Shown here piece by piece: positions 56,133 to 59,650 of a stretch of 64,000 bases of DNA; the first letter of the stretch is position 1, and the number at the start of each line of letters is the position of its first letter. The notes beneath the pieces were generated by a model that saw only the letters and a list, made by a program, of their open reading frames with translations, did not search any database and was not told the origin of the DNA. Origin of the DNA: Streptomyces echinatus (lineage in GTDB: Bacteria > Actinomycetota > Actinomycetes > Streptomycetales > Streptomycetaceae); NCBI RefSeq assembly GCF_014203595.1, contig NZ_JACHJK010000015.1, positions 62,001-126,000 on the forward strand. The letters run 5' to 3'. The translations under genes and the position numbers were made by a program.

Positions 56133-57716
56133 TCAGGCGAGCCAGGGCCAGCGGCCGTCCCGGCCGCTCTCCAGCAGCGCGACCATGCGGAACGCGGCGT
56201 CGGTGAGCCCGCCGAAGGTGTGCCGGTTCCCCGTGCCCGACGGACCGTGGCCCGCCCGGTAGCCCTCCAGGTTCCAGGTGTACACCGGGACGTGGTCCGG
56301 GACCTGGGCCGTGGGGCCGCCGTGCCGGTGCGGGGAGTACTGCTCGTCGGTGACGATCAGCACCCGGTCGTGCCGCCTGTAGTGCCGGCGCACCGCCTCG
56401 GTGGTGTCGGTGCCCCCCAGGTCGCCGAAGCGCTCCAGGACCTTCAGCACCGACTCGCCCGTGCGGAACCGGACCGTGTCACTGGTCGAGCCGAACTGGA
56501 CCAGGTCGGCGTCCGCCGCCCGCAGCGCGAGCGCCGTACCGAAGACCGCCGCCGCGTCCGCCCGGCTGAGCTGGGAACGCGCCGACACCTTCGACCAGAA
56601 CATCGAGCCCGAGCGGTCGACCAGGATCAGCGTCCGGCCCGGCAGCGCGGGCACGTTGGCCAGCGAGTGGCCGAGCGCCTGCTCCAGCGGGTAGGACCAG
56701 CGCAGCGAGGGCGCGTGCTGGTAGGCGGCCAGGTAGCGGAACGGGAACTGCCGCGAGCGGCGCACCTGCTCCGGGTCGCTGATCCTCGCCGCGACCTGGG
56801 CGGCGACCTCGTCCGAGACGCCGGCCTCGTCGAAGTTCCGCAGGTTGCGGACCAGCGCCATCGGGCCCATGGACGGAATCACCGCCTCCCAGGCCGCCTT
56901 GTCCAGCGGGCCCTGGAGCCAGCCGGCCAGCGCCTCCCAGGTGACGCCCGCCGCCGCCAGCCGCTCGGCACCGTCGGCCGAGGTGACGACTGCCCGCCGT
57001 GCCTCGACGGGCAGCGCCATCAGCTCGCGGTGCAGGGAGAGCGCCGGGAGCGACGCGGGCGGCACGGCGGTGTCCGGGTGGTGGCGCCGGTCGAGCGCGT
57101 ACCGGAAGAGGTCGCCCTGCCACGGCTTGTCCGGGTCCGGGGAGGCGTGCACCAGGTTGAGGATGTCGCCGAAGCGGTAGCCCTTGGACGCGGTGTCGTA
57201 CTTGAGCAGCGACCGGGCGTGGTAGAGCCGTCGTACGGCGTCGGCGACACCGCGCTTGACGGGCTTGGGCACGGCGCGGCCGTACGCCGACGTCCAGTAC
57301 GCGAGCAGCTCGCCGGGCTCGTCCGGGCGCTGCAGCACGGAGGCCACGACCTGCCGGTTCGACGGGCCGTCGGTCGCCCCGGCCGCCAGCCGTGCGTGCA
57401 CGTACTCGGCGGCGCCCACGAGGGAGGCCGTGCGCATGTTGCCCTCGCCGCGCAGCCAGCCCAGCAGTCCGGCCGTCCACTGCGGGTCCGCGACGGCGAG
57501 GTCACGGACGAGCCGGGCGAACCGGTCGTCACGGTCCTCGGCCTTCTCGTAGAAGGTGTCCTGCGAGACGAAGTCGGCGACGGCGAGCAGGAACAGCTCC
57601 GAGCGCGGGTCGCGCTCCTGGCCCCGGCCGCCCTCGTGGGTCCGCAGGACGCGGCCGGTCGATGCCACCGCCGACTTCGGCTGCGCCTTGGCGGTACGCG
57701 TGTTGAATCGCGCCAT
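56133..57716 (-). CDS. rsr: TROVE-domain protein, bacterial Ro60 homologue (Rsr)
   Basis: The 527-residue protein has the TROVE HEAT-like ring (about residues 30-350, for example LLGWLRGEGNMRTASLV and HPDTAVPPASLPALSLHREL) and a C-terminal VWA domain with the MIDAS D367-x-S-x-S371. Ro60/Rsr proteins are ring-shaped RNA-binding proteins that hold misfolded RNA and Y RNAs, and in bacteria they work with PNPase and exoribonucleases in RNA quality control and stress. The ATG at 57716 follows a GGGGGAA site. Three Y-RNA-like units lie immediately upstream on the same strand, as expected of an rsr locus. Confidence 0.93.
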   Translation of the reverse strand: MARFNTRTAKAQPKSAVASTGRVLRTHEGGRGQERDPRSELFLLAVADFVSQDTFYEKAEDRDDRFARLVRDLAVADPQWTAGLLGWLRGEGNMRTASLVGAAEYVHARLAAGATDGPSNRQVVASVLQRPDEPGELLAYWTSAYGRAVPKPVKRGVADAVRRLYHARSLLKYDTASKGYRFGDILNLVHASPDPDKPWQGDLFRYALDRRHHPDTAVPPASLPALSLHRELMALPVEARRAVVTSADGAERLAAAGVTWEALAGWLQGPLDKAAWEAVIPSMGPMALVRNLRNFDEAGVSDEVAAQVAARISDPEQVRRSRQFPFRYLAAYQHAPSLRWSYPLEQALGHSLANVPALPGRTLILVDRSGSMFWSKVSARSQLSRADAAAVFGTALALRAADADLVQFGSTSDTVRFRTGESVLKVLERFGDLGGTDTTEAVRRHYRRHDRVLIVTDEQYSPHRHGGPTAQVPDHVPVYTWNLEGYRAGHGPSGTGNRHTFGGLTDAAFRMVALLESGRDGRWPWLA

Positions 57717-57749: not shown

Positions 57750-57929
57750 GGGAGGCGCAGCAAATGGAGGGTGCCCGAGGTCGAGAGTCGGCGGCGGTTC
57801 ACATACGGCTGCTCTACCCGCTGAGCTACGGCGTCCCGAAGACGCCGACGGGATTCGAACCCGCGCTCTGCCGTCCAAGGAAGTAACCGCTGCCTGCGCA
57901 CCGGACACCCACCATGTGCTGCGCCTCCC
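57750..57929 (-). promoter_or_regulatory. Long-range 18-bp helix enclosing Y-RNA unit C
   Basis: On the minus strand GGGAGGCGCAGCA (57929-57917) is perfectly complementary to TGCTGCGCCTCCC (57762-57750). After one mismatch, ATGG (57915-57912) pairs with CCAT (57767-57764). The helix would enclose unit C and end 33 bases before the rsr ATG. Its 5' strand shares GGGAGG with the closing stem of unit B, so the two structures exclude each other. It would be a natural RNase III substrate or a switch. Confidence 0.7.
57768..57909 (-). ncRNA. Y-RNA-like unit C, with permuted tRNA-like (YrlA-type) domain
   Basis: The ends pair as GGTGTCCG (57909-57902) with CGGGCACC (57777-57770). Inside, GCGGTT pairs with AACCGC, flanked by the conserved CGCCGA strand. 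The tRNA-like part runs in permuted order: T arm with loop TTCGAAT (57848-57864), an acceptor helix CGGCGTC/GACGCCG closed by a TTCGG loop (57829-57847), the TA linker, then a D arm GCTC-8-GAGC (57811-57826). Sequence between these is not a normal anticodon arm. This is the organisation described for bacterial YrlA RNAs. It lies directly before rsr. Confidence 0.85.
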
Positions 57930-57998
57930 GAGATCAGGTCGGCGGCGGTCGTGGATTCTTTGCAAAAGAAGTAACCGCAGCCTGCGCACCGGGAGGTG
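57921..57998 (-). ncRNA. Y-RNA-like unit B, minimal form without tRNA-like domain
   Basis: The 7-bp closing stem is CCTCCCG (57996-57990) with CGGGAGG (57930-57924). Inside, CAGG pairs with CCTG, CT faces CGCCGA, and GCGGT pairs with ACCGC. The apex is TTCTTT-TGC-AAAGAA. The 5' strand GGTGCGCAGGCTGCGGTTACTTC is almost the same as in unit C, and CGCCGACCTGATCT matches unit A, so it is a related RNA lacking the T arm, acceptor and D arm. Its ends overlap the long-range helix. Confidence 0.7.
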
Positions 57999-58011
57999 CG
58001 AAGTTCTTGGT

Positions 58012-58151
58012 GTCCAGAGATCAGGATCGGCGGAACCGACGTACGGTGCTCTGCCCCTGAGCTACACCGGCCTGTCGGAGCCGGTGGCGGGATTCGAACC
58101 CGCGGCCTCCCCATGATGAGTGGAAGTAGGTCCTGCCTGTCGCACCTGGAC
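58012..58151 (-). ncRNA. Y-RNA-like unit A, with permuted tRNA-like (YrlA-type) domain
   Basis: The closing stem is GTCCAG (58151-58146) with CTGGAC (58017-58012). Next come CAGG with CCTG, CA facing CGCCGAT, and GGACC with GGTTC. The tRNA-like part has a T arm GCGGG-TTCGAAT-CCCGC (58087-58103), an acceptor helix CACCGGC/GCCGGTG closed by 8 bases (58065-58086), TA, and a D arm GCTC-7-GAGC (58048-58062). The acceptor helix differs from unit C at most positions yet still pairs, which indicates selection on structure. It is the promoter-proximal unit. Confidence 0.85.
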
Positions 58152-58158
58152 GTGCACC

Positions 58159-58181
58159 ACTCTAGGAGGACGGCCGCGGGC
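58159..58181 (-). promoter_or_regulatory. Candidate -10 for the Y-RNA/rsr transcript
   Basis: On the minus strand TAGAGT (58164-58159) lies seven bases before the first base of the unit A closing stem, the spacing expected for a start at about 58151. Upstream is GC-rich and no good -35 exists at 17 bases; TTGGCC at a 19-base spacer is the closest. The short CGGCC-CGC-GGCCG hairpin in between may terminate the PhoX gene. Confidence 0.45.
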
Positions 58182-58198
58182 CGGGCCAACGAATTTGC

Positions 58199-59650
58199 TT
58201 ACCGCTTGTGCCGCTTCCAGGGACCGGTGATGGCGAGCATGATGCCGGGGGTCTGGATGTTGGCGAAGAGGGTCTTGCCGTCGGGCGAGAAGGTGACGCC
58301 GGTGAACTCGCTGTACTCCGGCTCCTCCTCGGTGCCGATGTTCAGCTCGTTGCGGGCGATCGGGTAGGTCCGGCCGCTCTCGGTGGCGCCGAACAGGTGC
58401 TGGACGCCCTCGCCGTCCTCGGCGATGACGAGGCCGCCGTAGGGGGAGACGGTGATGTTGTCGGGGCCGTCGAAGGCGCCGTCCTCGGCCGGGTCGGGGT
58501 TCACCCCGAGCAGCACCTTCAGGGTGAGCGTGCGGCGCCCCGGATCGTAGAACCAGACCTGGCCGTCGTGCTGGACCGGGCTCTCCTGGCGGGCGAAGGA
58601 GGAGACGACGTACACGCCGCCGTCGCCCCACCACATGCCCTCCAGCTTGCGGGCGCGGGTGACCTGGCCGTCGGTGAACTGCTTGCGCACCGAGACGGTC
58701 TTGGCGTCACGGTCCGGGACGTCCACCCAGTCGACGCCGTAGACAGTGCCGATCTTCGTGGCGCGGGACAGGTCGTCCACGAACTTGCCGCCGGAGTCGA
58801 AGCACTTGAACGCCTGGAGCACACCCGCGTCGTCGGCGAGGGTGCGCAGCTTGCCGCGGCCGTGGTGGAAGCCGTGCGGCGGGACCCAGCGGTAGAAGAG
58901 TCCGTTGGGACCGGCGGCGTCCTCGGTCAGGAAGAGGTGGCCGCGCTTGGGGTCCACGACGACGGCCTCGTGGGCGTAGCGGCCGAGGGCCTTGATCGGC
59001 TTGGGGTCGCGGTTGGCCCGGTGGTCCTCCGGGTCGACCTCGAAGACGTAGCCGTGGTCCTTGGTGAAGCCGTATCTGCCGGCCTTGTCCTCGGTCTCCT
59101 CGCAGGTCAGCCAGGTGCCCCAGGGGGTCCGGCCGCCCGCGCAGTTGGTGGCGGTGCCGGCGATGCCCACCCACTCGGCGACCTGGCCGCCGCGGCGGAC
59201 CTCCACGACGGTGCAGCCGCCGGCCGCCCCCGGGTCGTAGACGAGGCCCTCGGTCAGTGGCACCGGGTGCGGCCAGTTGGCGCGGGCGCCGGCCAGCTCG
59301 TGGTTGTTGACGAGCAGGGTGGCGCCGCGGGGGCCGTCGAAGGTGGCGGTGCCGTCGTGGTTGGACGGGGTGAACTCGCCGGACTCCAGCTTGGTCTTGC
59401 CGCTGTACGTGATGATCGTGTACTCGAAGCCGGCGGGCAGGGCGAGGATCCCGTCCGGGTCGGAGACCAGCGGGCCGTAGCCGACGCCGTGGTGGTGGCC
59501 CCCGTGGGCGGACTCGGCCTCGGCGCTCTCGGTGTCCGTGGCCGCCAGGGCGTTCGGCGCGGTGGCGAGGGCGCCGACGCTGCCCGCCAGGGCGACCCCG
59601 GCACCGGTGATCGCGGATTTTCTGGCGAAGTCCCTACGGGTGAGCGACAT
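58199..59650 (-). CDS. PhoX-family alkaline phosphatase (DUF839)
   Basis: The 483-residue protein has a Tat signal peptide (LTRRDFARKSA, Arg5-Arg6; AxA site near residue 36). The PhoX beta-propeller has NNHELAG, WGTWLTCEETEDKAGRYGF, GRYAHEAVVVDPKRGHLFLTEDA, MWWGDGGVYVVSSF and GPDNITVSPYGGLVIAEDG. PhoX enzymes are Ca2+/Fe-dependent secreted phosphomonoesterases made under phosphate limitation. The ATG at 59650 has AGGAGA upstream. A PHO box is present at 59723-59744, consistent with PhoP control. Confidence 0.9.
   Translation of the reverse strand: MSLTRRDFARKSAITGAGVALAGSVGALATAPNALAATDTESAEAESAHGGHHHGVGYGPLVSDPDGILALPAGFEYTIITYSGKTKLESGEFTPSNHDGTATFDGPRGATLLVNNHELAGARANWPHPVPLTEGLVYDPGAAGGCTVVEVRRGGQVAEWVGIAGTATNCAGGRTPWGTWLTCEETEDKAGRYGFTKDHGYVFEVDPEDHRANRDPKPIKALGRYAHEAVVVDPKRGHLFLTEDAAGPNGLFYRWVPPHGFHHGRGKLRTLADDAGVLQAFKCFDSGGKFVDDLSRATKIGTVYGVDWVDVPDRDAKTVSVRKQFTDGQVTRARKLEGMWWGDGGVYVVSSFARQESPVQHDGQVWFYDPGRRTLTLKVLLGVNPDPAEDGAFDGPDNITVSPYGGLVIAEDGEGVQHLFGATESGRTYPIARNELNIGTEEEPEYSEFTGVTFSPDGKTLFANIQTPGIMLAITGPWKRHKR

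Follow-up and report, generated by a model that had tools for sequence, protein, structure and literature searches.

A tandem array of Y RNA genes with permuted tRNA modules upstream of rsr in Streptomyces

Work on bacterial Y RNAs has so far been based on a few RNAs, from Deinococcus, Salmonella and Mycobacterium smegmatis. Each species reportedly has at least one Y RNA with a tRNA-like domain, and several Y RNAs per rsr locus are for this reason taken as known in general. For Salmonella YrlA (PDB 6CU1), a circular permutation relative to tRNA has been documented (PMC11472068; PMC8394870), and the tRNA-like domain of YrlA is a substrate of tRNA-modifying enzymes (PMC8394870). The Salmonella rsr-yrlBA-rtcBA operon co-encodes two Y RNA genes with rsr (PMC7790460). 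In bacterial Y RNAs the lower stem is bound by Rsr, and in the RYPER model of Deinococcus radiodurans a Y RNA tethers Rsr to PNPase (both PMC4726728, PMC8394870). Here we describe three tandem Y RNA genes, units A, B and C, on the minus strand (58151-57770) of a 64,000-nucleotide stretch of Streptomyces echinatus DNA (the window; NZ_JACHJK010000015.1, positions 62,001-126,000). They lie between a -10-like box (58164-58159) and rsr (57716-56133), which encodes a Ro60/Rsr orthologue. Across 81 Streptomyces rsr loci (the window and 80 further), the array was conserved with compensatory changes, tRNA tertiary pairs and fixed spacing.

Anatomy and conservation of the three units

Units A, B and C each close on their own ends, and above the end stem they share a Ro-type core made up of the internal loop GGUGCGnAGGC (read as GGUGCGACAGGC in unit A of the window), an inner stem starting GGC, and UACUUC. 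Units A and C adjoin the Ro60/Rsr orthologue, have the own-end lower stem with its conserved internal loop, and carry a permuted tRNA module with tRNA-like T and D arms, features that place them among putative Y RNAs of the YrlA kind. Unit B has a short hairpin only and is predicted to be a minimal Y RNA outside the YrlA class.

Comparison of the class I form of unit C (46 sequences) showed that 94.0% of the alignment cells were paired and that 12 pairs carried two-sided changes; none of 500 shuffles equalled the observed value on any of five measures. Such counts are inflated by relatedness, yet a slid-partner control that preserved kinship fell far short, with at most 50% paired. Pairing was also counted in tRNA numbering, anchored on the T and D arms and not fitted. 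In unit A and in unit C of classes I and II, the T stems were 100% paired, the acceptors 98-100% and the D stems 99-100%, and the anticodon-type stem of C reached 95%, where shuffles averaged 88% and did not exceed 91%. Positions relevant only to the tRNA tertiary fold were retained, namely U8 and A14 (U8-A14) and the 15-48 pair. Of 45 distinct unit C modules, 38 have A-U at the latter, 5 have G-C and 2 have neither (A-U/G-C switching, Fisher p=5.5e-6, uncorrected for relatedness). Unit B was 90.4% paired, with a covariation score of 0.087 versus 0.043 when shuffled, and 0 of 500 shuffles were as good.

The original prediction, made from the letters of the window, had read two permuted tRNA mimics here, each inside a stem formed by the unit's own ends, with a third, shorter unit between them, and had named unconserved pairing in related rsr loci as evidence that would speak against it. 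The sequence does read T arm, acceptor hairpin, UA and D arm in A and C, and the shorter unit is unit B, with its own end stem CCUCCCG/CGGGAGG. The acceptor helices, said to differ in sequence while pairing perfectly (CACCGGC/GCCGGUG in A, CGGCGUC/GACGCCG in C), were 98-100% paired in relatives, with two-sided changes in C. Conservation was thus found in the related loci, and the comparative data support the reading that a minimal Y RNA and two of the YrlA type precede a genuine Rsr with a TROVE domain. The YrlA covariance model that had been proposed as a check, Rfam RF02553, is independent of our alignments. It matched unit C at 38 bits (E=1e-6) and unit A at 33.6 bits (E=1.9e-5) in the correct register, though below its gathering score. 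Model R2, for which only unit C sequences were used (from the window and 45 relatives), recovered unit A with 72.4 bits (E=7e-15); in a search of the whole genome it scored unit B at 45.7 bits (E=1.2e-6). Model R1, of which the window sequence is itself a part, matched unit B at 96.2 bits. R2 matches spanning only positions 20-118 or 31-112 were attributed to ordinary tRNA genes in tandem, with the model reading from one into the next, and were discarded, an explanation checked for G000:C1:686931, which spans two tRNAs; a match on G000:C10 resembles coding sequence and was taken as chance. The predicted features of the array are as follows.

58159-58164, minus strand: -10-like box TAGAGT of the array promoter; position conserved in relatives
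58012-58151, minus strand: unit A, YrlA-type Y RNA with tRNA-Met/Thr-like module
58146-58151, minus strand: unit A outer stem, 5' side GUCCAG; pairs with 58017-58012, invariant in alignment A4
58012-58017, minus strand: unit A outer stem, 3' side CUGGAC; invariant in A4
58129-58137, minus strand: unit A inner stem, 5' side GGCAGGACC; pairs with GGUUCCGCC at 58037-58029
58109-58125, minus strand: unit A anticodon-arm hairpin UUCCA-CUCAUCA-UGGGG, from a 59-sequence comparison
58087-58103, minus strand: unit A T arm GCGGG-UUCGAAU-CCCGC; 100% paired in 54 distinct sequences, with G-C/A-U compensation
58065-58086, minus strand: unit A acceptor hairpin CACCGGC-loop-GCCGGUG; 99% paired
58064-58063, minus strand: unit A UA (U8 A9), preceding the D arm
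58048-58062, minus strand: unit A D arm GCUC...GAGC; 99% paired, G15-C48 in 54 of 54
57922-57998, minus strand: unit B, minimal Y RNA without tRNA module (alignment A3, 67 sequences)
57941-57982, minus strand: unit B inner stem GGCUGCGGU/ACCGCCGCC; five pairs with two-sided changes
57970-57956, minus strand: unit B hairpin UUCU..AGAA, with UA/GC/CG exchange
57770-57910, minus strand: unit C, YrlA-type Y RNA with class I tRNA module (alignment A1)
57870-57874, minus strand: unit C anticodon-stem-like helix, 5' side ACGGC; pairs with GCCGU at 57809-57805, 95% paired
57848-57864, minus strand: unit C T arm GCGGG-UUCGAAU-CCCGU; 99-100% paired
57829-57847, minus strand: unit C acceptor hairpin CGGCGUC-UUCGG-GACGCCG; 98-99% paired, three pairs with two-sided changes
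57811-57826, minus strand: unit C D arm GCUCA...GAGC, preceded by UA; 100% paired
56133-57716, minus strand: rsr, Ro60/Rsr orthologue of 527 amino acids

Unit C forms its outer stem, GGUGUCCG/CGGGCACC, from its own ends. Its tRNA is opened in the anticodon loop, with the anticodon stem ACGGC/GCCGU, in which 3 of 5 pairs showed two-sided changes, linking the head to the Y body; a short closing helix in the Rfam YrlA model appears to play the same role. The tRNA of unit A would instead be opened between positions 26 and 27, because a closed hairpin occupies the place of the anticodon arm and is followed by a variable loop of 5 nucleotides. This hairpin was overlooked in the original prediction, whose description of two tRNA mimics was otherwise correct. 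Joining unit A through an anticodon stem as in unit C held only two pairs, and the closed anticodon arm was adopted instead. Among 59 sequences its 5-base-pair stem was paired in almost all cells and its 7-nucleotide loop had U33 in nearly all. The loop reads CUCAUAA in 22 of the 59 and CUCAUCA in the window. Since the anticodon letters vary (CAU, GAU, CUU and others), decoding is not what the conservation of unit A preserves. The geometry, and the resemblance of module A to tRNA-Met(CAU) (closest in 35 of 59) or tRNA-Thr(CGU) (24 of 59), point to descent from a tRNA anticodon arm. The presence of the closed hairpin explains why ARAGORN called part of unit A a tRNA-Met(CAU). Mean identity was 91% for unit A (alignment A4, 55 sequences) versus 78-86% for B and C.

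Spacing varied little: the A-B gap is 14-15 nucleotides, the B-C gap 11, and the distance from C to the start codon mostly 48-60 (53 in the window). A TA[CG][AG][AG]T box ended 7 nucleotides before unit A in 46 of the 62 loci with A, and in loci lacking A a box, mostly TACAGT, stood 17 nucleotides before unit B in 14 of 19. In 42 of 62 loci a motif of the AATTCG type (TTAAnnCG in relatives; window 58189-58195, minus strand) starts about 46 nucleotides before A; it is possibly a -35 element or a regulator site.

Exchange of heads and association with rsr

The position of unit C carried a class I head in 47 loci and a tRNA-Leu-like head in 29. Likeness was judged against the tRNAs of the window's genome on a 61-point scale; the closest tRNA was Leu for 28 of the 29 Leu-like heads and Arg(ACG) for 21 of the 47 class I heads. 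Arg likeness reached 46-47 points in loci L004 and L018 (next isotype 26-32), and an Arg origin of the class I head is suggested only for relatives such as these; no donor isotype stood out for the window's own unit C (several at 29 of 61). The Leu-like heads have a D arm UGGCGGAA...GACGCG and G26. Most of them bear an extra stem-loop at the class II variable-arm site (GAGGG-AAAA-CCCUC in L076, UUCCU-GGGAAC-AGGAA in L030), and at least eight combine a short variable loop with the Leu-type D arm.

On a tree of rsr DNA, parsimony required at least 16 changes of head type, at least 10 of unit A presence and at least 6 between full and mini unit B, numbers that recombination of rsr itself could have inflated. 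The window, with its class I head, and its sister L001, whose rsr is 94% identical, differ in head type. Heads were probably exchanged through recombination with tRNA genes or with other Y RNAs. Because the tRNA type swaps often while the Y body stays unchanged, the pattern suggests either that good tRNA mimicry outweighs which tRNA is mimicked or that strains favour different mimics. In L012, L020, L042, L059, L067, L070 and L076, unit B has shrunk to a short hairpin (32-37 nucleotides where measured) that retains the outer stem and GGUGCG and has lost the inner stem.

Among 61 Streptomyces genomes, rsr was present in 39, and full-length Ro-core RNA matches occurred in 37 of these 39 versus 0 of the 22 genomes without rsr (Fisher p=1e-14). 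Model matches in the latter were tandem tRNA genes or Ro-less elements beside DUF7873. The two exceptions with rsr (G037, G040) have an rsr only 70-73% identical, resembling the second copy in the window's genome. The core pattern was found in 26 of the 61 genomes and its reversed control in none. At least three additional Y RNAs lie outside the array in the window's genome:

G000:C3:297841-297982: Y RNA with Glu-type head (L126), 83.5 bits
G000:C15:214977-215143: Y RNA with non-tRNA head (L127), 36.4 bits
G000:C3:785756: minimal Y RNA before the second rsr
G000:C3:784059-785833: second rsr, 72% identical, with a single minimal Y RNA upstream (L129)

No rsr was present in the 7 kb read around each of L126 and L127. 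Y RNAs of this sort, without rsr within 3 kb, argue for action in trans; rsr-distant units and two-unit arrays also occurred in other genomes (L160-L164, L169). R2 matched 54 of 297 sampled genomes of the class, some of these being tandem tRNA artefacts, and in other actinomycete families arrays upstream of rsr held five (L249, L250) or four units (L252, L253, L254, L255). rsr also occurs in Streptomyces and Gordonia phages, with 86 phage records in total, and each of the three phage loci read (BRock, GiJojo, VanLee) showed an array of four units. A triple array is present as first described, but its extent had been put too modestly: it is common across the genus, has longer counterparts in other actinomycetes and phages, and is accompanied by further Y RNAs in the same genome.

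The product of the window's rsr matched the TROVE domain (PF05731, 51.7 bits, cut-off 23), has a readable DRSGS metal-site motif and matched TROVE proteins in the PDB (E=1e-28), the nearest solved relatives being 9kop and 9l5y. It scored 25.3 bits under the NCBIfam equivalog NF041674, whose cut-off is 900. It passes the TROVE line and misses this one, and represents a divergent TROVE branch outside the modelled equivalog. A TetR-type regulator gene and a PhoX-like gene lie around the array, the latter upstream of it with its stop at 58199.

A separate observation concerns model matches to permuted tRNA modules that lack the Ro core, all of them just downstream of a DUF7873 (PF25283) gene. Within about 50-300 nucleotides this gene is followed by one or, usually, two such modules (L173-L179 and L270-L289, including G000:C2:356416 in the window's own genome). 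This arrangement was seen in all 7 loci that the RNA model had brought up and, by strict regular expression, in 13 of 20 further loci, the others by reading; Arthrobacter phage Racecar and Gordonia phage Phendrix (L290, L291) have it as well. DUF7873 was found in 31 of 61 Streptomyces genomes and 73 phage records; sequence searches gave no PDB relative, and the literature search no paper on it. This looks like a second, Ro-independent system of a protein and tRNA-mimic RNAs, separate from the array.

Proposed function of the array and alternative explanations

The best explanation of the whole, and in our judgement a likely one, is that the three Y RNA genes form a polycistronic array that serves a single Rsr; processing, Rsr binding and separate roles of the heads, which we infer, are part of it. 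The same architecture recurs upstream of rsr in other families and phages and the promoter tracks the first unit, which argues for this interpretation. One promoter just before unit A would drive A, B, C and rsr together, because gaps of 14-15 and 11 nucleotides without promoter or terminator separate the units. The RNAs would then be cut out, each folding on its own ends. In analogy with other bacterial Y RNAs, Rsr is predicted to bind a module formed by the lower stem and its GGUGCGnAGGC internal loop, and above this module would sit interchangeable effector heads: a whole permuted tRNA plus anticodon arm in A, a permuted tRNA in C and a short hairpin in B. Through such exchangeable RNA subunits, one ring protein could take three alternative ribonucleoprotein forms. 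The heads of A and C might tether Rsr to, or block, tRNA-recognising partners such as PNPase, tRNA enzymes and possibly tRNA nucleases, and unit B would give a headless form.

Several points weigh against this explanation. A scan for sigma-70 promoters and terminators found neither, and no -35 element was recognised; since a terminator was not found and the gaps are short and fixed, a single processed transcript would still be the simplest reading. No unit reached the RF02553 gathering score of 69 bits, and an Rfam search at gathering level gave no match, either in the window or in the eight other loci searched. That score is the curators' line and not a biological feature, and for this reason membership is proposed for the YrlA kind and not for the Rfam family as drawn. 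Minimum-free-energy folding against shuffles gave z values of -0.7, -1.9 and +0.7, not significant in G+C-rich DNA, and the case therefore rests on comparison. Expression of the three RNAs and their binding to Rsr are predictions, the division of labour between units is conjecture, and each of A, B and C has been lost or reduced in some species.

The array could also act partly in cis. The three folds may form one structured 5' leader through which Rsr or tRNA-processing enzymes control rsr, free RNAs being irrelevant; the position between promoter and rsr, mostly 48-60 nucleotides before the start codon and without a terminator, would suit this. We nevertheless think it improbable, as every unit closes on its own ends, single units are gained or lost while the rest stays, and similar units lie away from any rsr (L126, L160, L161, L162, L163, L127). 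The absence or reduction of A, B or C in some species would fit plain redundancy, in which tandem duplicates with functionally equal heads raise the Y RNA dose. Conserved order and unit-specific outer stems, the greater conservation of unit A and the lack of a tRNA head on B make this rather unlikely, if less so than a leader. That the region consists of decayed tRNA genes or of a degenerated tRNA array, as the ARAGORN call on part of unit A might suggest, is scarcely credible given the permuted order, the Ro core, the link with rsr and the compensatory changes in the permuted register, which already contradict it.

Within the preferred explanation of three Y RNA genes serving one Rsr, we tentatively raise a broader idea, which may well prove wrong: actinomycete Y RNAs may be a modular chassis that repeatedly recaptures the bodies of different resident tRNAs and loads one Rsr with a panel of decoys. 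The panel, one member of which has an anticodon arm, would comprise a Met/Thr-like A, an Arg- or Leu-like C in many relatives and a Glu-like unit distant from rsr. If so, the decoys could engage isoacceptor-specific enzymes, sensors or anticodon nucleases. A single Rsr that faces two different tRNA mimics plus a Y RNA without a head, and heads that swap tRNA type between sister species, make the purpose of the mimicry directly testable, in a genus that is genetically tractable. The array also carries a warning, as tRNA finders misread parts of arrays of this kind as tRNA genes, here and in phage records.

Relation to described Y RNA systems

The kind of RNA, YrlA/Y RNA, is known, and several Y RNAs per rsr do not in general set this locus apart. 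The original prediction knew of no described array of two YrlA and one minimal Y RNA. In a literature search whose coverage was incomplete, so that priority can be checked only in part, we found no account of the tandem order or of Y RNA arrays with four to five units, and none of a Y RNA that bears an anticodon arm or a Leu-like head with a variable arm. The array architecture is thus apparently undescribed, which is absence of evidence only.

Like YrlA (RF02553, 6CU1), units A and C have the own-end stem with internal loop, the order T arm, acceptor hairpin and D arm, and a place beside rsr. Unlike it, two heads per rsr share one array with a minimal unit between them and score below the Rfam gathering line; unit A has a closed anticodon arm, and unit C of relatives may be Leu-like, in some with a variable arm. 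In the Salmonella operon the Y RNAs follow rsr, judging by the order in the operon name, whereas here three precede it and the neighbours are the TetR-type regulator and PhoX-like genes. The arrays of phages BRock, GiJojo and VanLee are similar in having four tandem Y RNAs upstream of rsr, with tRNA-type and minimal units mixed; they differ in their divergent cores and in that part of a unit is annotated as tRNA-Arg in two of them. These annotated genes (L268 2269-2343 in GiJojo, L269 2204-2275 in VanLee) overlap Y RNA units matched by the models and are probably misannotations. The RYPER degradation machine of Deinococcus, with a Y RNA tethering Rsr to PNPase, is a proposed working model that may by analogy apply in Streptomyces.
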